A program made the position numbers and the translations under genes. From Liolophura sinensis (Eukaryota > Mollusca > Polyplacophora > Chitonida > Chitonidae), in NCBI RefSeq assembly GCF_032854445.1, contig NC_088295.1, forward strand, positions 48,471,385 to 48,535,384: a DNA stretch of 64,000 bases, in the 5' to 3' direction. A model generated the notes under the pieces. That model made no database searches. It was not told where the DNA came from and saw nothing but the letters and a program-made list of their open reading frames with translations. How positions within the stretch are numbered: position 1 is the stretch's first letter; every line of letters starts with the position of its first letter. Below are positions 3,995 through 31,300 of the stretch, one piece after another.

Positions 3995-4956
3995 TTTATT
4001 ATTTGAAGTCATTATCAGATCATAAACGTTTGTGTCACTTTATTTATGAAATTAGAACAATAACAGATATTTCTTACAAGTACAATCTTAGGAATGTCTA
4101 ATATGCAAGAGCAAAAAAAAAAAAAAACAAACAAAAACAACCAGCTCAGCAGTAAAAGTAAAACTGTATAATTTACTTAACCAAATATATCACAGTCAAA
4201 TACAGCTGCACTATGGGTCTGTTGTCCACTCAAGAGAGGAGCTAACAGGAATGATTCGCCTCTTTCGACACAATGAGCAAGTATTACAAAATCTTTGGCA
4301 GGATGGAAACAAAGTAATACATGTCACAACATCACAGACACAAGAATGTACTGTAGGTATAAGCAAACCCCTTGGTCCACTATAAATGAGCCCATTAATT
4401 GTGATACTTGTATGTACATGTATTTAAAAGGCACAGAGTATAAAGTGGAACGCATGTTTATACAGAGCAAATTGTATAACCTTAGTGAAAGAGTTACACA
4501 GACAAACGTAAAATGGCTTTCAATAGGGAATACAAGTCAAATACTGACAATTCACAAGGCAGAAGCACTTCAGGGAAAAGTGGGAAAGCCACTTGGATGG
4601 TTAATTTAAAAATTTTAAAACCTCAAAATCTGCTTAAAACACTCTGCATTAAAAAACAGCTATCCATCAACATTATTGGAAATTTTGTACAACCAAGTTC
4701 AAATCAATGGGTAATGCTGAAACTGACAAATACTGTTACAACAGGAAGATTCTTATGTAGTCTCATTTATATTAGAAATATGACAAATTCATTCTAAAAA
4801 ATACTAGGAATGTTTTTAATATTATGTATAAACTGACTTTCCATCTCATTAATGCGAGCACAAAATAAATAGATTACAGATACAGATTATGCACCTTCTG
4901 GTCAGTGGAAACTATCAACTCTTACAACACTGTATCAACATCCTTATCCAGGCACT
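3995..4956 (-). other. AK9: probable AK9 3'UTR with poly(A) signals
   Basis: On the minus strand AATAAA occurs at 4039-4044 and 3995-4000, the first strong signals after the AK9 stop at 4957. This would give a 3'UTR of about 0.9-1 kb. The A-rich stretch at 4110-4140 is T-rich on the mRNA strand. Several open frames here on the + strand show no similarity to anything I recognise and are taken as chance. The exact end is inferred. Confidence 0.45.
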
Positions 4957-7900
4957 TTATGCCACCCAAGTCTGTGTGGGCTCAATGCCCTTCAGCGCAA
5001 AGAATGTCTCTAGTTTAGAGTCAAAGTCCTCGGGTCTCTCTCTGGGCTCCTTGTATCGTACGGTCATCTTGTCTCCTAGATAGGATATCAGATTACACGT
5101 CTCCTCAAACTTCATTAGCTTCTGACGGTACTTCTTCCTCACATAGTCAGAGTTGTTTGGGTTGTAGGCTGGAATGAAATGCATGGTCATTATTTTATAT
5201 GATCTTTTAAGTTGGTCCCCGCGTATGCTATAACTTACACGCCAGCTATGGAGGAGTGTACTCCTTTGTTCTTTTCTGTAACACGTCACTGCTTCTATAT
5301 ATTTGTGCTTGTGAAGCAAAGAGCTACCCTAATTTCCCAACCTTTTCACATATGAAAGTGCAGCTTTCGGTGTATGCACCTTTTTACGTTGATTTTGGAG
5401 ACATTGGTTGGTTTAGCTTATTTCAGGGCTGCACAAATAGTCTATCCACAGCAATGCCCTCAGAATACGCCTAAATAAACACCTTGCAAACAGGCGAAAA
5501 GGTTGAAGAATTGCAGTAGCACACTGCAATGTAACAGCAGAGAATGTTATGTTTTTACACACATTAGAATGGGCTTGTGTATTTGTAGGCAACTGGACAC
5601 ATCACCAAGCTCCACACTGCATCTTACCATCTCATCAAGAATATTCATGCTCCCACAGCCAGCATATTGGTTGATTTTGCCTAGTATTATAATTCATGAT
5701 TTACCCAACGAACATGCTTAATAGCAAAAGCAAACAGCATACATGTAGACAGTAATCAATGGGGTTTTGCAATAAGAAATATGTTTTTCAAGGATCTTCT
5801 AGAATTCATACTATAGTCACATATGTGTGGATCTTTCAGGCAAAGAACTACAGTATAACAGCAGCTGAAATTCCATATGTTTTTGAGACCATTTCTTTGA
5901 CCTATATTACAACCTTTATTGAAGAATCTTATTTATTTTATAAAATAAATGTCAATACGAAATCTAAAACAAATACGACATTTTCAGAGGTAAACATGCA
6001 AGTCTTGGAATCAGGTCCTTCACACCTGAATACTTCACAGAATTTCAAACAACCATGAGTACCGGTACCCTACTACATGTATATATCAACCTAACTTCAC
6101 AACCTGGGAAACAAATTCATGCCAGCTTCCATACCTTTCAGGTAGTAAGCCACATAGAGCAGTGCTGATCTGCTGGCACTGAGGAAAGGGTACTTGGGTT
6201 TGAAGCAGCCAACAGCCGTGAGGGCCTTGGTCAGGAGACCAGCTGTTGTCTGCTCCAGGAAGCCCAGCATCGGCAGGGCTGTTGTCTCCATGTTCTCCTT
6301 CCTAGGGGGGAGTTTGTGAGGCAGTCGTAAGTTCCAGTACTTCTCTGGCAATCTGTACATGACCAGGAACCAGAATAAATATTAACTCCATGTACTTGCC
6401 ACTACAGCTCCGAAACTCCAAATTTTTGTTCAAAACAAACATACATGAAAATTTTCAGTCCAAAACAAGTTTTTGTTTTCAGGTTTTCCTGCTTTGTAAT
6501 TCCTGAGTTTTATATACATTCTTACTTTTATAAAAATATCTTCAATTTAAATACACAAGAAGATATTCGGTTTAGCAAACATAAATAACTTTAAGCGACA
6601 GGAGTTGTTATTTCAGTATGGGGTACATCAAAATGAATCTTTGCTATAAAATTGTACCAATAAATACAGGTGCCACACATTACTGTAATCAGCAGAATCA
6701 ATGGAAGATGAGCTCTATTGACTGAGAACAAGAATGCAGCTACGAAATACTTTCTCACCTCATAAATAAGTTGAGCTTGTCCTCTGACTCTAGGTGATAG
6801 AATTTCTCCCTGTATTCCACAATGAACTCTTCCGATCCAGGTACAATAGCCTCATACCTGTTACAAATCACAGAGGACAGTGTAGAAGGGCATACTGCCG
6901 CTCAATTGTTTTCACTGATGTCAACTGGGTGATCCTCGACAGAATAATAAATCTCCTTCACCATAAAGCATACATACAAGCCATATATTGACCATCAGGG
7001 TTACAGTTTATGAAAAGGTATGTGCATGAACTTAACTTGTATATTTACAATCTGTTCTAGCTTAGTAAAGACACAGGTCGGGTTTGATAGTCAAAGTTCA
7101 TCAGAATTATAATTTTGAATATATAAAATCTAGACCTAAAACATTTATTGTTAAGATTTACTTCGGCTTAAAAGAATTAGTCTGAAAATTCCCTGCACAT
7201 ACCTGCACTTGCCAGAGAGGAAGGTGACTGGGCAGTAGCCCTTTAACTCGATCTGTTGACCAGTGGTCATCTCTTCCGCTTTCCGTCTGCGGGGTAGAAG
7301 TTCTGGAGGGGGCAACTGGGTTGGGGCCAGTGGAGGGACGTACTTCTCTGGGCCAGCCAAGAAAATGTCCAGCTCTTCTTGACCAGCCATCTTATAATAA
7401 TGACCTGATAGATATAACGATACATTGAGAGACATTAGTAATAATGACCTGAGCAGAAATAAATATACATTTGCCGAGAGACATCTTGTAATAATGACCA
7501 GGGTAGAAATGAGAATACATCAGCTGAGGCATCTTGTAATAATGACCAGGGTAGAAATGAGGATACATCAGCCGAGGCATCTTGTAATAGTGACCAGGGT
7601 AGAAATGAGGATACTTCAGCCGAGGCATCTCGTAATAGTGACCAGGGTAGAAATGAGGATACTTCAGCCGAGACATCTGATAATAATGACCAGGGTAGAA
7701 ATGAGGATACATCAGCCGAGGCATCTTGTAATAATGACCAGGGTAGAAATGAGGACACATCAGACGAGGCATCTTGTAATAATGACCAGGGTAGAAATGA
7801 GGACACATCAGCCGAGGCATCTTGTAATAATGACCAGGGTAGAAATGAGGACACATCAGCCGAGGCATCTTGTAATAATGACCAGGGTAGAAATGAGGAC

Positions 7901-10309
7901 ACATCAGCCGAGGCATCTTGTAATAATGACCAGGGTAGAAATGAGGATACATCAGCCGAGGCATCTTGTAATAATGACCAGGGTAGAAATGAGGATACAT
8001 CAGCCGAGGCATGTTGCAATGATGACCAGGGTAGAAATGAGGATACATCAGCCGAGGCATGTTGCAATGATGACCAGGGTAGAAATGAGGATACATCAGC
8101 CGAGGCATGTTGCAATAATGACCAGGGTAGAAATGAGGATACATAAGCCGAGGCATCTTGTAATAATGACCAGGGTAGAAATGAGGATACTTCAGCTGAG
8201 AGATCTCCAGCAATAATGCCATGTGATTAAATGTGGATACCTGGCAGCTAGACATCCTATAGTGACAAAAATCTGTCGGCTTCATCAAACCAAGAATACA
8301 TGTATGTTATGTCACATAATGCAAACCGTCACAGCAACTTCCAAAGCCTTAGTTTTTGAAGACACTTCAGTTTACAGATTAAATGGTAGAACATAAATCT
8401 GTTCTGTTCTGTAAGGCATCCCCATACCACTTTTAAAAATGCAGCTTGTTTCTAAAAGGAACTGGTGCAGCTTTATGAGATTTTGAGACACTTTATGGCT
8501 TAATAACTCTAAATGTAAATCTGTTCTTATACCAGGTGAAAACTTGATATTGTTCACCTTGGCAGCCAACATGAGGGGATATAAGACACTTTCTGAGGCT
8601 AGGAATCAAAGGCATGCTACATATTGTCACAAAAGGTATCGCCATCGCTCATGACCTATGCAACATCAAAATTTATAGAAGAATGAAACAAAAAGTAGGC
8701 ATCATTTCTTAGAAAATGTACAAACCCTTGTCTATAATACCACTTTTAAATGTGAATTCTTCATCATTATCTGGACACAACTACACAAACACCTGTCCAT
8801 ATGCTATGCAATCTTACCCAGGCTCTGTGAGTTGCTATGGTAACCAGGTAAGCTGACAGGTGTCTTGCTAAGTGATGAGGATGTGTACCCAGTCTAATTA
8901 AGAATCAGAATTCCAACCTGTACCTCATGATTAGTGAGGGATCAATACAGATTAGTGAACTGCTCAATATATGGTATACTGAGAATTGACTATCACATTT
9001 GAAGCAAGTCTAACCCGCTATCACTACAGCCTGCACAGTCAGTCTCATCATCGGCCTACTGAAGTTCCACATTACCATGGTCAAATGCACAAATGTTGTC
9101 TCCCAAAAACTTGACCTTCCCTTTTTCTGAAGGAGTAGAATATATACTTGTACTGCAATGTTAATCCTATTCTAATAATTGAGAATGAGTAAAGTAAAAC
9201 ATTATTCTACTATAAACAGAAACAGAAAAAAAACTACTACTCTTACTCCTCATCAGTACAATTACAGTAAAAAGTTTCTTTGTTTGAAAAGTTCAGCATT
9301 TTTATTTTATTTTTTTTCGGACACAGATATAAATTTTCTGCATTTTTTTTTCATTGATGTTGATTACTAATTTACATATAAAACATTTCTGCAGAGTTAA
9401 TAATGATCTAGATGGCACCCTATTGTTGACTGCTGGCTACAATTTAATGTTTGGGGATACAAAGAGCTGTACAGTGTACCTTGGCTTGGTTTCTGTGCAT
9501 TTGTTGTGGGGGGGGGGGGGTGCATGTTGCTTTTTATGCTATCTCTGATCATCTCTTACCTCTGTACTCTGCAGCATACTGCAGTGTTGAGTTTGTGGAA
9601 CAGTCCACCAGTTCTCCCTTGGCCAAGCTTACAGGACAGTACTGACCAAAGTCACCCATACGGACCAGGAACTCATTTGGGGTCACACACAGGTTGGCGA
9701 TAGGGGCAGCTTTACCTGGAATACACATGTGGATTATAGCAAGAGACTTACAAAATGGCTGAGTTTTATACTCATGTCTTGAGGCACTTGAGATATTCTG
9801 CACTGCCATTTTAATTATCTCAACATTGTCTTAAAATGAGATGATGAAAGAGGATAATTTCAGAAGGAAATATGTTTTCATTATGTACATGCAATTTACA
9901 ACTTTTTTCAACAAGGTGAGTCAGAACCCAATGTGGCACAATGAGACATTTTCTCAGAACTTATCTATATAATCAGAAAGTGTTAGTCAGACATCTGTTG
10001 CCCCTCAATTTCAACATTTTGAAAAAAATTCACACTGTGAAGCAGAATTTTGCCATATTATCACATGTCTCCCCAGTTATGCCTCACTTACCATTCTGTG
10101 TTCTCTGCAGGTAACCCTGGATCTGTTGGACACTTTCTTTGCCCACCTCCAGGGCAGAGTTCCACACCTGCCACTTGGACTTCTCCCCATCTATCTTCTT
10201 GTAGTTCATATGTTCCTTCTCGTACCACTCCCTCACACTTATCACCTGAGCCTGGTAGGCCTGTAGCCTGGACAGTAGGATCTTAGCACTGTCGTGGAGA
10301 GGCAGGACC
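4957..10309 (-). CDS. AK9: AK9 exons 34-39: C-terminal CPV modules 4 and 5 and tail
   Basis: Exons 10092-10309, 9560-9715, 7203-7404, 6759-6857, 6135-6352 and 4957-5168. Exon 34 is a long helix (SRLQAYQAQVISVREWYEKE). Module 4 runs QYCPVSLAKGELVDC (Cys 1662) across exons 35-36 to GHYYKMAGQEELDIFL and KYVPPLAP. Module 5 is GYCPVTFLSGK (Cys 1745), EKFYHLESEDKLNLF and PEKYW. Unlike the first three, neither is followed by a P-loop. The tail (FLSASRSALLYVAYYLKG, SDYVRKKYRQKLMKFEETC, ISYLGDKMTVRYKEP) matches the C-terminus of human AK9. The stop is TAA at 4957. Confidence 0.95.
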
Positions 10310-13300
10310 CTGGAGGCACAAATTTATCTGTCACACTGTATGTACATGTATATGACCCACATATCACTTTTTGTCTTATCTTTCACACTATGTGTATGTA
10401 TATGACCCAAATACTACTCAATTGTTATAGTCTGTCACACTGCATAAACACGTATATGACCCAAATACCACTGAGTTGTTACACTGTATGTCACACTGTA
10501 TGTACATGTATATGACCCAAATATCACTCCGTTGGTACAATCTAACCAGTCACACTGTATGCATATGTATATGACCCAAATATCACCCAGTCATTATAAT
10601 CTAGCCTGTCACACTGTACGTACATGTATACGACCAAAATATCTCTCAGTTGTTATAATCTAGCCTGTCACACTGTACGTACATGTATATGACCCAAATA
10701 CCACTCAGTTGTTATAATCTCGCCTGTCACACTGTACGTACATGTATATGACCCAAATATCACTCCATATCACACTGTATGCATATGTATATGACCCAAA
10801 TACCACTCAGTTGTTATAATCTAGCCTGTCACACTGTATGTACATGTATATGACCCAAATACCACTCAGTTGTTATAATCTAGCCTGTCACACTGTATGT
10901 ACATGTATATGACCCAAATACCACTCAGTTGTTATAATCTAGCCTGTCACACTGTACGTACATGTATATAACCCATATACCACTCCGCTGTTATAATCTA
11001 GACTGCCACAATGTACGTACATGTATATGACCCAAATACCACTCAGTTGTTATAATCTAGCATGTCACACTGTACGTACATGTATATGACCCAACTACCA
11101 CTCAGTTGTTATAATCTAGCCTGCCACACTGTATGTACATGTATATGACCCAAATACCACTCCCGCAGATGGGCATGGTTTTCTCCCTGGGCTCTGCCTG
11201 GTTTGCTCCTACCACAATGCTGGCTGAGTCAAATATTCTTGAGTATGGTGTAAAACACCAAGCAAATAAATAAATCAAATAAATTAGTTGCACCTACTCC
11301 TGTTCCCTTGCCCATAAAACTGACCTCAATCGTATAAGTGGAAAATTCTTGAATGTGGCGTTAACCATTCAAATAAATAAATAAATAGAAGACATAGTCT
11401 GAAATCAATATCAACGATGTGACAATATATTGTTCTAGTTAACAGCACGTGCATATCGGATCACAAGCATACTGTACATGCCTTCCTTCTCTGGTGGGAT
11501 GCTTAGTTACGGAAAAAGTCTTTCAATGTGTAAAATTCAATTTTCGTGTTGTGTTACACAAATGTTACATGTCATTGCTCACCTTTCTACAGAGTTCCTG
11601 TCCTTGGTCCCTCGCACCATGAGCTCGGTGCTCTCTACCTTCAGCTCGATCACCCTGACAGGGATAATGCTACGCTCAGTCATCAAATCCACCTGCTTCC
11701 TGGTCATGGGATACCCATCTAAGATGTACCTGTCGATAATAGTTAAACATGTGTCAAGACCTATGTGTATACAATGGTGATTTCTATCACGTAGAATAAA
11801 GAGGTGACCAGGTTTGAATTAAAAGGGAAGATAACCTATGAAAGCTTTAATTTCTACAGGTGTCTATAAACTTAATCACTATCATTGTATCACTGCAGTT
11901 CACAGCTAACATATACCCTTGCAACTTAATTCTTGGCCTTGATAGGTATGTGGACAGAAAATTACTCTAGAAGAATTATTCCTGGATTCTGCTTTTTTGC
12001 TTTAAACTATGATGGGGTTTCTCCACTTAGCAAAAATTGTAATACGTGTACTTATAATGAGTTACACTGCAGGTGGCATAATGCTGTGATTATATGTGAC
12101 AAATGGAGCGAGCTGTATGCAGGTGCTGACAAACTCAATCATACTGGAGCTGAATTTCTGAAATAAATTTTAATAAGACAATGAAAAGTTTTCCGTTTGG
12201 TATGAGGCATGCCACCAGTCGCTGACTTAAATACTCTGTTATTGTGACTTCATGTCCAGCAAGTCTGTCTGGCATGGATTGTAAATGATGACTGAACCAG
12301 TTCTCTGAGGATCTTTGCCATGCCACTAGTCACTGATGACTTACCCTCTGGTTTGTGACTTCATATCCAGCAGACACACGTCTAAGGCCTGTACAGCTAA
12401 TTCATCTGGCACGACCAGACCTTTCTTCAGGTAACTTTCCATCTGCTTGGCCAGCTCAGTGTTGGGTTGATACTCAAGGATACTCCTCATGGCTTCCCCG
12501 ATGGACAGGTGCAATAAGCCATATTCCTCGGCAAAACGAGTTGCCACTAAAAATCAGGAAAAATCAATTTACTGACGAGTTTTTTTGTAACTCTATACTC
12601 AATAATTTATCACTTATACGATTTCAGTTATGAGTGTGGAGGAAATCCGACTGCCTGTGGAAATCCTATGGCAATTTACTGATGAACCATCCCAGGTGTG
12701 GAATACTCAGATACTGTAAATGTGTTCAGGTGTAATATTTTCCAAAAATTAATGGTGCCATATTCACAAAGCTTTTCCAGGTTCAATTTCTCAGAGGTGA
12801 CATGACCTAAGCTGTAGCGTCGAAAGATGAAGTGATTTGATTCTGACGTAAGTACAAAAAGAAATATTGTTCTATAAATTTTGTGAAAATGAACCCATAT
12901 GTCCAATATAAAACAATCCTTCGTGGACCTTTCATTTAGATATGGGTGAACTGACCCTTGATTTTACAGTCACCAAAAATTATGAATGTGGGCAAAACAA
13001 TTTGATGTACAAATAAATAATTCAATATAAATATATATATATATTAAAACTCCATTAGTACTCACAGAAATGTTTGGTTACACGATGCAGTGATTATGTG
13101 GAAATCATAACGAACGGCTTTAATAACGCCATTATCACAAAATCAGTAATAACCAAAATCTGATCATGAACAAAAGCTAAACACACGACACCTTCAACAA
13201 AGTCACAATGTCATCAATCGTCATACAAAATTGTCTTGAAATTACTCACATTACTCACACTGCTTTATACAAGTATGGATCTATCATTATTATTACTTAC

Positions 13301-16300
13301 AAGAAGTTTTGCCTGACTTGGGTGGTCCTAATATAGCCATCCTGATGGGGACCACAGGTTTGGGACTGGGCTGGTCCAAGTACTTGAGGGGGTCTAGCGT
13401 GAATTTTTCCCTGGCCTCTGGTGATGAGAGGTAGTAGAGGTGCTGTCTGTAGATACAGGGGTAGGTGTTGTACCCAGGGCCACTCATAGGCTGGACACAC
13501 TCCCCATCCTTCAACTGCAAGGCACATTTAATTGTTTTGTTTAATAACATTACACTATATTGTAATGCTGAAAATTTATCAGGTTGGAATTTGAATTTAA
13601 GGGTAGTTGTATCAGTCTATCTACTGCAAAAAATAAACAATGGCAACACCACAATTGAGGTTAACGAAGGAATAGGTATATCACAAGTCAATAATGGATA
13701 TCAGCTCCGTCAGGGTGCTTCAGGATGGAATTGTCACAGTTCAGCCTTTTACTTACTATGCAGGTTTTTGAGTCGTTTGTACTATGCTGTTTTTTGACAC
13801 AAAAGGGCAACTTGCCTATTTTATCCTGGCAGCTTTTATGTTTAGACAAAACTACGGTCAGAATATCATTATCTTTACAATATATGACACCTAATAGCAA
13901 ACTCACCTAAAAATATAAATCAGACCATTATTTCATTTTTTTTTATGCAGCATTACAATCTTCATACCTTAACTGGGCACCATCTTCCAAAGCGACTGGG
14001 TTGTTTGTAGCCAACTTGTAGCATCTTTTTGGCCAGTTTCTCGCTGATCGAGTAGACCCTCTCAAACATACTGTTTCTGAACTCCGTGAAAGGCTTTATC
14101 TTTTTGCTGATTGTGTATCTCACAATATGAGGCTTTCTTCCTCCATCTATCTCAACACGAGGGACTAGCAATTCTTCTAGAGTATCCTACAAAACACAAA
14201 CATGAGATAATCACTATGTGGCACTCACAGCGCTGATCTAGATAGTTTGGCAATACATGTCAAGCTCCTAAAAATTATACTGGAACAACCTGCCATGAAA
14301 ACAACTCTTGGATCGAAAAGTATGAAACTATAAACTGGTATTGCCTTTATCCTGGAAGAAGATCCATCTGAGGCCAATTCCACGAAACCATTTCCGACTT
14401 AAGTCAAACTTTGAAATACAATCTTAAAACTTACTTTGGGGCTTAACACGTTACAGTTCTGTCCATCTCATCAATGTAATCTTAAGACAAACGAGTCCGA
14501 ATTTCAACTTAGTGTACCCAAAACCAAAAAAACGTCACACACAGAATCTAAATTCTGACTTAAGTCAGAAATGGCTTTGTGAATTGGCTCCAGTTGTCTT
14601 TCAGATTTTCAACAGAAAGATGATAGAAAAAAAAAAACTCACTTTACTTTGACTTCAATCTTAAAACACAAACACACAGCTCTTGGTAATTCAAGTAATC
14701 CAATTTGATCTTTTTTACTGAATTCTAATTATCTTTCATACTGGCACTTCTTCTCATATTCGAGCTTCCCGATTTGCAGCATAACTTGTTTGATGTCTAC
14801 CATAACTGCTTCATCCAAAAGCCCTGGCGGCTGATTGGTGATGCCCCTCACCAGAGGATTGTTATATCTAGATTGTCTCTCCTTACCTGTACGATGGCCA
14901 GCCGGTTGGTGTCTGCATCATACACTTCCTCCAGGTCATTCTTCAGCCTGTCTGTAGCATCCTCCTCTAGCTCTTCCTCCTCCTCTTCCTCGACTTCCTC
15001 CTCCTGAAATGTAACACAGACAGGTTAGTTATCCATCGTCATGTTACACATTAAATATGCTATTTACATTATGGAAAAACAAGAAACACATACTCTATAC
15101 CCTCTTCAGAGTCAACTCTTATCAAGTTAACAATACGTATGCTCCATAATGCAGATAACAGAGCATGCCTTATAATGCATAACGCATGCTCAGTATGCCC
15201 TCCATAATTTTGTTAAATTAATTCTGAGCTGAGTTTCAGCTGATAACTTTGATTCTATTCTGTCACATCCTTTTTATTTAAGCTAATATACTTCCTTTCT
15301 TCTTATCTGCCCTTGCTAACGTTATGAACAATATGCACAAGCTGTCCTTGTAAGTGACTGACCTCAAACTCCTCCGATAAGATGACTTCAATATCTTCCT
15401 CTTCCTCGTCTTCCTCCTCCTCCTCAACATCCTCTTCATCGACAGTCCCAGCATCACTATCACGCTCTTCCATTCGAGCCTGACCACAACAACAGCATGG
15501 GTTATGACAATACATGACAACTTCTAAAAAAATTGTTTGCTTCTCCATCACTGTCCATTCCAACTAAAACCAATCACCATTCTTTAGTTGTTAGTGGTGA
15601 GTGAAATGTATGTTGATGCAATTAAGCAAAGGTATTTCTGATGGCTGTAGGGGTGTAACAGTCAATGATCAGCTTTGTAAAGGTCTAATGATCAAATAGG
15701 CATTGATATTTCCAAACTTCTGAAAGGAGATATGCCAAAAGCACATTTCTTAATATTTCTACATTGTACATGTAACATGTATAAAATAGTGTCATTATTA
15801 AATATCTGAGAAAAAAAAACAAAAAAAAATGAATAAGATAAGAACTGCTAATTCAGAACTCCTTACAATTCTCCTCAGAATTATTACACCTGGAAGTGAG
15901 TTCAATTTTGTACCAAGGCTCTGATTACTGGATTGACTAAAATACAGACCATCCACATTTTCTTACTCCAATTGGTTGGGTTGTCTGGCATTAATTCATT
16001 AGCTACTTGGTTAACTGTCACTTTAAGTTTTGTTATGAATCAACATTTAAATTTAATCAGTTACCAATATTAGCATCCAGTTAAGTGTCTAGCTTCATTT
16101 TGATAAGTTGACAAAAGGAACATAACAAGTCAAATAATGATGCCATACTTAGGCCTGGTCAGTTTCCTGAAACACACTATCAAAGCTAAGTATTTGTAAA
16201 ACACATGTAATACCATATTGGTGATTGACACATCTACATCTGCATGTATACTGCAGGTGTCATACATTCCATTTTGTTTATTTATTTATTTATTTGATTG

Positions 16301-25300: not shown

Positions 25301-28300
25301 CTACGTATGATGGGCGTAGGGTATTCGTCTAGGATCGGGCTGTACCGTAGTGTACATTATATATGTACAAAGACATATGCTTGCCATACAACTTATGGGC
25401 TCACAATGCCACGGATGCTTTGTAAAACTAGCAGTAAATGCATCCACAGTACTAGATGCCCCTGACGTCTTGCTATGTGCTAAAGTACAGGGAAGAATTG
25501 GGTCAAGTGAAATACTGTATGTCACCTAAAGTTTAACATTTTTCAAGTGACACATTTTGTTTGATTCTGATTGGTTCATCCACCTAATAAGATTTAAGGT
25601 CTAATAGTGTTTATTGAAATCTGATTAATTTAAAACACTCATTTAAAGGCTTTCATGTGCTTCTGAAAGTGTGTTTTTTTTTATTTTCAAAGCTTTAGGT
25701 GAGAGTATTGAGTAGTTCAGAAGGTCTTCACCATATGTACTAAACTGACCTTCACTGAGATCTTCTCCAGCATCGAGTCTCCTCTGCCTCTCCTCCTCAG
25801 CAGCTATCCTCGCAGCCTCCGCAGCAGCTAGCTTGTCCTCCTCATCCTTACGCCTGCGAAAACCAAGGACCAAACTCACCAGTTAGAACATCTCCGTAAC
25901 TAAACACTACATATAGCACTTTACAGAAGAAAAAAAAAAAAGAATTTAAACAAATTTACTTTCAAGAGTTAGGTATAAGTACTAGCCTTCCTCGGCCAGC
26001 CAAACCTTTCCTCTGACCCTAGCCTCAATTTTCCAGCTAACCTTTCCTCTCAGCTCGCCTGACCTTTCTGCCTCAGCCAGCATGATCTTTTCTCCTCAGT
26101 CAGCCTTACCTTTTCTCTCAGTCCGCCTAACCTTTCCTCTGACCCTAGCCTTAATTTTCCAGCTAACCAATCCTCTCAGCCAGCCTGACCTTTTCTCTCA
26201 GCCAGCATGACCTTTCCTCTGACCCTAGCAAAAGTTTTCGAGCTCACCTTTTCTCCTCAGCCAGCCTGGCCTTCTCCTTGGCCTCCTCCTCCAGTCTCAG
26301 CTTGACCTTCTCATCGATAGCCTCTTTGTCCATGAGGTACCAGCGTTTGGTGAGGAAGCTGCCCTGCTCACTGCCATCTGTCAGACTGACTACCTCATCG
26401 GGCAAGAAATTCTTCTCTATCAGGGCGTTCCACTGCTCACGAGTATTGGGGTAGTTATCCAGGATCCACCCCCCAAACCTGAGTGAAAATTGCATATATA
26501 GTAATTTAACTACAATTTACTGAAATATTTTCTCTGGTAATATTTCAGTCTTGCATTCTAAAATGGCAGTGTTATAACATACCATGAAGCCCGAGTAAAT
26601 AAACTTGAATTCTCACTGGAAACATATGGAATGACTGAAACACTGACATCTTTACAAACAACATGTTCAATCAATAATACAATGTATTGTTCTGCATCTT
26701 AAAATGGTACAAATATTTTTGAAGCAATGATCCACATGGATAAATTTCTTGTCCATAATATGCTATCTCAAAAAAGAAGTTATGAAACAACAGATTCACA
26801 AATGTCCACGACAGAGATCTCAGGAGCCTGTTTTACACAGATGGTATAATGTGACTACCATGGCAAGATATCTCTACATGACAGTTGCATTTAACAAAAG
26901 TTACACCCACTTTATAAAACTGACACCTGGACTAGCTCTTTCATCCCAACCTGTACTTACATTGGTCCGTCTGTTCTGTCATGCCTCAGCTCCTTTTCTG
27001 CAGCTCTGACTGCCTCCACTAGCACCTCTAACTGCACCTCAGGGCTGAGGTTCACAGGCTCCTTCTCAGCTTCTGCCAGAGCAGCCTCCACGATAGTGAC
27101 CACCTCTGGGTGGTCGGCCTCCACCACCACCTCAGGAGGCGGAGGTTTCTCCACAGGCTTCTCCACAGGCTTCTCAGATGATGGCTCTGCCTCAGATGCA
27201 GGATTATCTCCCCCTGATTCTCCTACAACCATGCACAGAATGTCTAACTATCATTACGTTAAGTCAGGATCAATATAATTTTCAAAAAAAGTATAAAACA
27301 TACCATGCCGTCTAAGAACACTGATTGTTCAGCTTAAAGGCAAACTTTGGGTAATTAGCTAACTTCTGCCTATCTAATTAAAACATCATCTCAAAAATAG
27401 ATACCTATAATAACTTACAATGAAAGACATATACAACATCCAGGAATATCACTCTGCACATGGGAATTTAATTAATGACTGACACATGTACTTTCAAAGC
27501 CCACTTCATCTTCCATCATGAAAAAAAATTAAGAAAAATGTTTTGCAAGCAAAATACCATATACACTGGTAATTTAAATTATGTAAACCCATGCATTACA
27601 ATAATTTTATTTCTAAATTCTACACACATGAAAGATATCAAGTGTCTACTTCACGACAGACAGAGAGTTTTCATCAGCAAGAAGATCTTAAGTATTAAAT
27701 TATGTACAAGTTGGTGTGTATTAATGATTAAATGGCGTGAGCCAGTATAAATTAATTATGAGCCACACACCGTGTTACTGAGGTGAAGTCACACCTGCCA
27801 GCAGGTGGATTATAAGATATAGATGTTACTGCCTATTGCACGGCAACAGCATGCAGACAGTTCAGGGCACTTCAGCCTTGACGCTTGGCTCAGGGGTACA
27901 CATATTTGTACACTACCAGTTTAATGTACATGCTAGATGTGCCTGTGCTGGTCATGAAGAGAAGTCTTATGGAGAACAACTTTATTTAGAACATGATTTC
28001 ATCAGAATGGACACAAAATGATATACATATATAGTATACTATGAAAGGCATTTTCTGGGGAGCATTATGCATGAAGCTAAATTCTGTGGTACATGTAATC
28101 CACACAGTGTGGCTATTTCCTGGTAACTGGTGCTAAAGACTTGGTCAAGGTCACCAACCCGATGTGCATTTCAGTGTTGCTGACACACCATGAAGCCCAT
28201 AATCAGATGAGAAACTGGAGAGTCCACTGTATGAGAGAATTTATACTGTATTATCCGGATATGCAAGAGTAAGTATTTGTTCATTTATCATGTAATTGAA

Positions 28301-31300
28301 GTGTATATTACACCCTAAAGTCAAATTTGTGCTTCCTAGCACTTAAAGACATGTTAACACCACAGTATTAAACATTACTGAAGATTCAGATTATGGGAAT
28401 GTACTAGGGTTGTACTCCACACGAAACTGGATAAGTATGTGGGTGTTTTCTTGGCCAAGAACCTTTCTTTCTCCTTCTCTTTGTTTAAATTCATTCATTT
28501 GACTTCTACTATTACTGTACAAAAGAATTTCCCTTTAATGTATGATGCCAGCCAGGTATAGTAGTGGACAAGCCTAAAGTGTCTGGAAATCCACTGTATA
28601 ATCAATAATCCAATATTTGCTTAAAAGATAAATGGATCACAGAATGACACAAGTTTCAATGTCAAGAACTGCTTGGTTCTTACCATCTGTCTTAGCTTCT
28701 GTATCAGTTTCTGATTCCTCTTTTTCTGTAGTTGTTCCTGTAATGATAATTATACAACATTTAAAAAACAAAAAAAACACAAAAACACAATACACCTTCA
28801 CCTGAAAACTGGAACATGTAGTTTTGTTAAACAAAACATTTTGTATCTACCATTGGTGATTTCAAATATAGAGAAGAAATTATTCGACATCCAAATAATC
28901 AATTAGGACATGTGTAATTAATAAGTTGGCACATCAATTAAACATGACAAAATTTACACAATCGTTCAGTAATTTTTGGAAAACTTTAAGATAACAAAAC
29001 CAGGACGATCATAGACATCGATGCAAGCGATTCTAAATTGATTCCACAATAAAGAGTCACTGTCAAAGTAAAGTCATTCAATGACACCAAAAGCCATGGA
29101 TGCAAACAACATTTCAACAACAGACACATAACGTCTCAACAGAAGAATCAGATACGAAACAATGGAAGACTTCTGTCAAAGAATTAATGACAAGACATTA
29201 CATGATACAGGTAAATACATGTTAGTACCGTGCAATAGATCTGACATACATATAGGGGACCTCCGATTGGTAAGTGTGCTTGGGAAGCATAATGACTCAA
29301 GAGCCTCTCACTGGAGCAGTTGCTATGAGTTTAAGTCCAGCTCATGCTGGCTTTCTCACCAGTCATACAATCTCCAGATGGTTGTGCATTTCCCTCCGGT
29401 TCTGCCCGGTTTACCCCCACCATAACGCTGCTCTCTTTAGTTACATGAAATATTCTTGAGTACGGTATAAAACACTGATCAAATCAATAACCATGAAGAC
29501 AATCAGTCTGTACTCTGAGCTCTCTACATGTAGTCATATACTGGTTTTCATTACAAATGTGTATGTTGCATGCGCACATAATTATAACATGACTGTTTGT
29601 GATTCCTTCATACTGGCCAAGCCTTGCCTTACCCTCCTTCTTTTCCTCCTCAATGGCATTCTCCTCTTTTTTCTCAGCTTTATCTTCCTCACCTTCATCG
29701 TGATCCTCTGAATTATCTTTGTCATTGTCCTCACTTGCCTTAGACGCATCTACACAATGGGAACACATGCAAACAACATACAGACAACAAACAGTACATA
29801 CAACATGCAGGCTCACTTAGTAATGCGGAAACTCTCATCGTGTTACGTGCAAGTAAATACCAGAAACGTTGTTGTCTTCAGTGCCCTTAGTTACATGTAT
29901 CTGCGGGCAACACTATAATGTCCTTGTGAAAGCCCCATTCGGCAAATAAGCGGCGCCAGAGTTTACACCACATACTGAAGGACAGGAGAATTACATGGAA
30001 ATCTTTGTAACCCAATTTTGTAAAAATTTGTAAGAAAGAAAATGTTTCTTTTCAAAAAAATTTCATGTCCAGTGCTCTTGGTGGATAATTATGTAAGATT
30101 ATTTTTAACATGGTTACTTAACAACAAAAAGAAGCATAGCTATTTGCTCTATAGGTCAAAATAGTTTCCAAATACTAAAAAGCTAATTTTTACAATCATC
30201 TGTGGCATGCATGTGCATCTTCATCGGGAACTGCATCCAACACTTACATGAATGTATAACAAGGAACAAGTTACTGATAAATAGTACATGTATATTAAAT
30301 ACCCTAGGCACCAGAAATGTTTGTAAACATGCAGGTTGACATATGTGTAAGATGTATGTTATGCAGATGGGTGTGTGGAATAATAGGAGAGTTCTTGCAG
30401 CAATAAACAACATGTGAATAACAAAGATTAACATCAAAACAGCAATGAACATGAAAGAAAAAAACAACAAAGCCATAAAAAACAAGCAATCATTTCTGTC
30501 TTACCTCCCTCTGTCTCTGAAGTCAGTGCTGCAAAATGACAGAAAGGAAACAAATTACAAACTATTTTATCCAAAAACAGAATTATATTCAGGAATTAGA
30601 TGACACACATTTCTTTATTTATTTGAATGGTGTCTAATAATGTACTCAAAAAATATTCACTTATGAGCTATGAGAGTTGTGGGTAGAGGAAACCAAAGTA
30701 GCACAAGGTTTAGCTTGATAAGCACCTTCCTGACTTCTTAATTTAAAAACAAAAGCACATGGAGGCGGATTTTAAGTTTAATGGATATTCTTTTATCATT
30801 TTTAATTGTTTGGACATTTTCTAGTCAGGGTTAAAAGGCCACATAAAACATATCAACAATTCCAGCATATAGTACATAATCAACAATGATTTTCACTAAC
30901 ATTCACATTATTGAGGCAGTTTAAATTTTCCAAATTCCCACCATTAATACAATAAAAATAAAAGGAAAAAACAAAGATGGATATTTTAAAAAATTGCTAC
31001 CCAAGGGCTATCTGACCAACATGTATTTAAAAGAAAACACAACACCAGATTAAATGTATATATCTACTGACAAAGTATCTCACATGATTTATTTATTTAT
31101 TTGATTGGTGTTTTACGCCGTACTCAAGAATACTTCACTTATATGACGGCGGCCAGCATTATGGTGGGTGAAAACTTGGCAGAGCCCGGGGGAAAACCCA
31201 TGACCATCCGCAGGTTGCTGGAAGACCTTCCCACGTATGGCCGGAGAGGAAGCCAGCATGAGCTGGACTTGAACTCACAGCGGCCGCATTGGTGAGAGAC

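Follow-up and report, generated by a model that had tools for sequence, protein, structure and literature searches.

A minisatellite in the AK9 gene of the chiton Liolophura sinensis that appears to derive from an intron-exon junction

Introduction

Minisatellites that repeat a splice boundary in tandem beside the true one have been described in amphioxus as 'mirage' minisatellites. The cases given in the available parts of the reports are Adh3 and the globins BflGb6 and BflGb9 (PMC3087553), TnC as a further mirage, and PGBD5 as a similar but imperfect one (PMC3902484). As these parts present them, the mirages do not disturb splicing (PMC3087553; PMC3902484), and those of the globin genes were proposed to feed intron gain (PMC3087553). 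Tandem genomic duplication has also been linked to intron gain in the potato RdRp gene, according to the available part of that report (PMC4974935).

Here we analyzed a 64,000-nucleotide stretch of the Liolophura sinensis genome (the window), in which a 48-bp minisatellite adjoins an exon of AK9, a cilium gene. Judged from the genome sequence of one assembly, this array matches the mirage kind already described in amphioxus. As far as the mirages are characterized in the available portions of PMC3087553 and PMC3902484, they share five features with the chiton arrays: the tandem repeats of a splice boundary stand beside the true boundary, acceptor and donor kinds both occur, unit length ranges from 10 to 160 bp, splice signals survive in many copies though not in all, and cluster edges escape homogenization. 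In contrast to the mirages, the host is a mollusc rather than a lancelet, and the acceptor AG is lost in the 15 standard units of the AK9 acceptor array. With the potato case, to the extent that it is described in PMC4974935, the common feature is tandem duplication within a gene, whereas the chiton host intron pre-exists and no new intron is seen. New here are a second, donor-side array in AK9 and a set of five firm and one tentative cases in 264 kb. No mirage-type array outside amphioxus was named among the matches listed from the literature searched, which took in few subscription papers, and a mollusc report may exist. Several arrays in one stretch of a mollusc chromosome suggest that the kind is wider than amphioxus.

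Results and Discussion

The array adjoins a conserved exon of AK9

AK9 lies on the minus strand of the window. The exon beside the array (7404-7203) starts GT CAT TAT TAT AAG ATG, completes the split codon G/GT (here and below a slash marks the splice boundary) and is followed by the donor GTATGTG. Joined to the preceding exon (9715-9560), it aligned without a gap through the junction to two AK9 chains of solved structures (E 2.5e-54); the junction peptide reads ...AAEYRG/HYYKM... against ...AAEFRGHYYKM... in the chain. Only one of these chains bears the label Adenylate kinase 9, the other being filed under a different molecule name; we take both to be mammalian. A single spaced query built from pieces of 26 additional exons, which were chosen by eye, matched the AK9 chains from about chain residue 115 onward (E 5.5e-284); one more piece, with its acceptor at 29749 and outside this query, was likewise chosen by eye. 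The exon model spans chain residue ~115 to exon 7404-7203, leaving aside the gene start and the exons below 7203. Because pieces of 28 exons match AK9 chains, the gene looks intact as far as it was modelled. The identification of the host gene as AK9 in the original prediction is thus supported by these matches. The conserved, gap-free junction indicates that the exon start is old coding sequence, and that the array is intronic and derived.

Directly upstream of this exon, the anchor GTCATTATTACAAGATG occurred 18 times on the minus strand at up to 6 mismatches in 17, the true exon at 7404 counted in. Fifteen anchors lie exactly 48 apart from 8170 to 7498, flanked by diverged anchors at 8220 and 7448, and one more eroded unit near 8264 was recognized by eye only. 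In the standard unit about 31 nt with partial similarity to the intron end are followed by 17 nt of exon start. Mean pairwise identity among the 15 standard units is 93%, with 10 distinct sequences, and inspection of the unit table showed a uniform center and diverged edges. The array had been placed at 7203-8216 with about 15 units right beside the exon. It does lie upstream of the exon and does hold 15 standard units, but the exon itself starts at 7404, the array extends to about 8285 and the unit nearest to the exon is diverged rather than of the standard TG form. A genome search that skips common words, and so falls short of proof, found no second genomic place for the array sequence. Coordinates are collected in Table 1.

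Table 1. Features of the AK9 acceptor region and splice-junction arrays in the 264-kb sample. Positions without a prefix refer to the window. Shuffles and genomic 20-mers: number reaching the observed edge match.
Feature	Position	Strand	Edge match	Shuffles	Random genomic 20-mers	Basis or remarks
AK9 exon with duplicated 5' end	7203-7404	-				phmmer to two AK9 chains, E 1.3e-15 and 2e-15
True 3' end of intron, weak acceptor	7405-7431	-				AG at 7406-7405; score 6.4, lower in 2/27 other AK9 acceptors
AK9 acceptor array	7388-8200	-	18/20	0/2000	0/3976	Tandem Repeats Finder (TRF): period 48, 17 copies, 92% matches
Diverged unit with AG retained (decoy acceptor before 7448)	7432-7481	-				unit table, site scores; TACTAAT at 7440-7434
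15 standard 48-bp units	7482-8201	-				TRF and unit table; TG replaces acceptor AG in 15/15
Eroded outer units	8202-8285	-				anchor scan and inspection; anchor at 8220, another near 8264 by eye
Preceding AK9 exon, ends ...AAEYRG	9560-9715	-				protein alignment, splice score; donor GTAAGAG
AK9 donor-side second array	25998-26247	-	19/20	1/2000	0/3989	
AK9 exon with duplicated 3' end, ends ...EEAKEKARLAEEKR	26248-26478	-				AK9 match, splice score
Donor array, CUB-domain gene	L008:3040-3439		18/20	1/2000	0/3989	
Donor array, L015 gene	L015:840-1259		16/20	1/2000	1/3986	
Acceptor array, membrane-type exon	L006:2280-2372		18/20	0/2000	0/3987	
Tentative donor array, rhodopsin-family receptor exon	L007:4990-5635		15/20	26/2000	28/3986	

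The unit resembles both sides of the splice boundary

The best units match the exon start at 18 of 20 bases, as originally predicted, and the alignment of the units with the exon bears this out. The 20-base match also withstood the shuffle test proposed with the prediction: its identity was reached by none of 2000 shuffles and none of 3976 random genomic 20-mers, and the local alignment score of these 20 exon bases by 0/5000 shuffles and 0/17,992 20-mers sampled from the window. With 40 exon bases the score was reached by 1/5000 shuffles. On the intron side the match is weaker, its score being reached by 30/5000 shuffles for the last 30 nt, by 43/5000 for the last 36 nt and by 44 of 17,992 window 30-mers. 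The match to the exon begins at the splice boundary, and in these 17 bases the consensus unit has a single mismatch to the exon, at a synonymous third position (TAC for TAT). The unit thus holds intron and exon sequence of a splice boundary, strongly on the exon side and less so on the intron side. The true boundary beside it is intact, as the exon joins the preceding one gap-free in the two AK9 chains. The start of the exon is conserved in these chains (RGHYYKM), which argues that the array came from the exon and not the reverse. The proposed growth from the acceptor region of the host gene is consistent with this junction origin and direction.

Most units lack the acceptor AG and the nearest one keeps it

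At the position of the acceptor all 15 standard units read CCCTG/GTC, the true site ATCAG/GTC and the diverged unit at 7448 CTCAG/GTC. A single change before amplification would explain TG in all standard units. Acceptors were scored with a weight matrix built from the 27 other AK9 acceptors, whose own scores are somewhat raised because the same sites trained it. The decoy at 7448 scored 11.4, against 6.4 for the true site, and mis-splicing is therefore possible. The predicted silencing of the extra sites by an AG to TG change thus holds for the standard units but fails in the nearest one.

Use of the decoy would read G/GT CAT TAT TAC TAA, placing a stop at the fifth codon. The motif TACTAAT lies 31 nt before the true exon and downstream of the decoy AG, where standard units have TACAAGAT; no other sequence resembling a branch point was seen in the 60 nt next to the true acceptor. 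Of the 27 other AK9 acceptors, only 8 have a relaxed branch motif and 3 the strict CTAAY form in the interval from 60 to 12 nt ahead of the exon, so that the motif carries little weight as evidence for a branch point; its role as one is a guess.

Further junction arrays lie in the surrounding 264 kb

We extended the window by 100 kb on each side, giving 264 kb with 43 TRF arrays by the cut-offs chosen. Five firm junction arrays and one tentative one were detected among them, a count that leaves room for more since most genes in this sample lack a gene model. Two of the arrays were first seen by eye. A later scan listed 19 array/strand/type rows, of which 6 were kept and 13 dropped by eye, some from DNA and others from the peptide alone. 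In a first automatic scan (27 rows), AK9-trained codon scores failed to separate true from false exons, and splice and edge criteria were used instead. Within AK9, the 29 exons have 58 junctions, with edges set by splice score; 54 were scanned and the 4 with an unclear edge dropped. Three exon edges matched at 18 or 19 of 20 bases within 1500 bp, the next best reaching 15. These were the acceptor at 7404, the donor at 26248 and the edge of a Glu-rich exon at 15003; this last exon resembles another exon, not an intronic array, and was rejected.

The donor-side array in AK9 consists of degenerate copies of the exon end plus donor (exon 26478-26248) with intron-start segments between them. Among the other host genes, two joined exons of the CUB-domain gene matched CUB at 4.4e-19, and the receptor exon beside the tentative array matched Pfam 7tm_1 (E 2.5e-31). 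The L015 gene gave no match in solved structures or Pfam. For its exon and the L006 exon no Pfam match passed the cut-off, and the coding call comes from the open frame and splice sites.

The decoys in these arrays are largely intact. In L015 all five donors, the true one and four decoys, share one sequence (GAGGTAAGG) and score 11.0 each. Five decoys in the CUB-domain gene score at least as high as the true donor, and GT is lost in one of six matched copies. The AK9 donor array has one decoy with a score of 11.6 and two with 10.6, compared with 10.1 for the true site, and some of its copies are without GT; both extra copies in L006 retain CAG. An in-frame stop follows the true donor ahead of the intact decoys in AK9 (at once), L015 and the CUB-domain gene. 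Among the four other firm arrays, decoys are mostly or wholly kept in three and mixed in one, so that silencing by loss of the splice signal does not stand as a general rule, and the true site must be chosen on some other basis.

On a wider scale, it is possible, though somewhat less likely than not, that splice-junction minisatellites are recurrent across chiton genomes, at roughly one per 50 kb as gauged from a single 264-kb stretch, and that they arose apart from those of amphioxus. If so, arrays in which a true site stands next to several identical, intact donors or acceptors would be standing natural tests of splice-site choice, and they would also give rise to branch points, cryptic exons and intron change. 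The five identical donors in a row in L015 are a direct natural test of how the spliceosome chooses among equal sites. The decayed AK9 copy may supply such a branch point, and chiton junction arrays may feed intron gain, as proposed for the amphioxus globins in the available part of PMC3087553.

Tandem duplication best explains the array

The AK9 acceptor array is most likely a neutral product of tandem duplication. Slippage or unequal exchange would have produced tandem duplicates of a segment across the 3' splice junction, comprising about 31 nt of intron and 17 nt of exon. The acceptor would then have been lost in one of them (AG to TG), and amplification and homogenization of this TG form would have yielded about 15 units, with the copies at the edges decaying. 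The array would remain intronic and be spliced out, with no job for the AK9 protein. It may be tolerated because most copies lack the AG, because the strong decoy AG lies upstream of the sole branch-point-like motif within 60 nt, and because splicing at the decoy would bring in a stop at the fifth codon. The sequence itself shows the junction origin and its direction, the distribution of TG and AG, the stop behind the decoy and the absence of coding constraint, whereas slippage, homogenization, splicing out, branch-point use and neutrality are inferred. From the sequence we hold this course of events, including the tolerance of the array and its lack of a protein role, to be highly probable.

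The duplication may instead have been directed to splice junctions, for example by repair of R-loops or of spliceosome-linked breaks, rather than being random. Five firm and one tentative cases among 43 arrays speak for such targeting, as do the several arrays of this kind in amphioxus (PMC3087553 and PMC3902484, available parts). Two of the five AK9 arrays touch a junction. Random placement, in which some exon edges are approximate, gave means of 0.37, 0.70 and 2.46 when exon overlap was limited to 30, limited to 60 or unlimited. The probability of at least two in five was 0.05 under the strictest of these nulls, but 0.14 and 0.84 under the looser ones. As the outcome depends on the null, we claim no targeting and regard it as unlikely.

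Slightly less likely still is that selection keeps the array as a splicing regulator, with its pyrimidine tracts or exon-like enhancer copies tuning a weak acceptor. The true acceptor is indeed weak (6.4), and every unit holds a pyrimidine stretch and exon-derived sequence. Moreover, the distance to a splice site is at most 60 bp for four of the five AK9 arrays, compared with 1.06 expected (P 0.0092, with the threshold chosen post hoc). However, the units vary at protein-changing sites, and junction-touching arrays are no commoner than under some of the placement nulls.

Exonic use of the array, adding an in-frame repeat of 16 residues (PRLMYPHFYPGHYYKM) to AK9, is very improbable. The 48-bp unit is a multiple of 3 and a frame of 304 codons is open across the array, but this frame differs from that of the exon, which closes at 7519. 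Several frames are open because the array is homogeneous, and the two AK9 chains have no insertion at this position. The distinct changes in the exon-like codons of the 15 units are mostly non-synonymous (2 synonymous, 5 non-synonymous), and they number 7 in the 17-nt part and 7 in the 31-nt part. No protein-level constraint and no open frame shared with the host exons was thus found in the AK9 array, which we conclude from its sequence to be noncoding. GHYYKM had been named as the amplified peptide core, from the fourth of the repeated modules of the protein. The AK9 chain has five similar modules, and the conserved HYYKM lies in the fourth, but 'amplified peptide' is misleading, since the flanking exons join without a gap and the codon changes given above place the array in an intron.

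Finally, the region is rich in minisatellites (43 arrays in 264 kb) and the intron-side match taken alone is not strong, but a chance likeness of an unrelated minisatellite to the exon start is scarcely credible, as no shuffle (0/5000) and no window 20-mer (0/17,992) reached the exon-side score and the match starts at the splice boundary.

Other repeats in the region

A 59-bp minisatellite (TRF also fits 177) at 10328-11162 of the window ends 19 bp before the AK9 acceptor at 10309. It was rejected as a junction array: the exon edge matches it at only 10/20 and, as tested, it contains intron sequence only. A 24-bp array at 1183-1473 lies just upstream of what appears by eye to be the last exon of a plus-strand gene, and its units contain a CTGAC...TTCAG-like run. 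Another array (L012:9213-9652) sits in an intron of an apparent TCP-1 chaperonin gene, recognized by eye, with its last unit entering the intron end. The mitochondrial genome, whose gene order fits a chiton-like mollusc, has a long two-base repeat between cox3 and a tRNA cluster (L003, about 4390-4760). On a contig of 108,685 bases (C99), seven COX1 copies about 15.5 kb apart mark tandem mitochondrial genomes, probably an assembly product.
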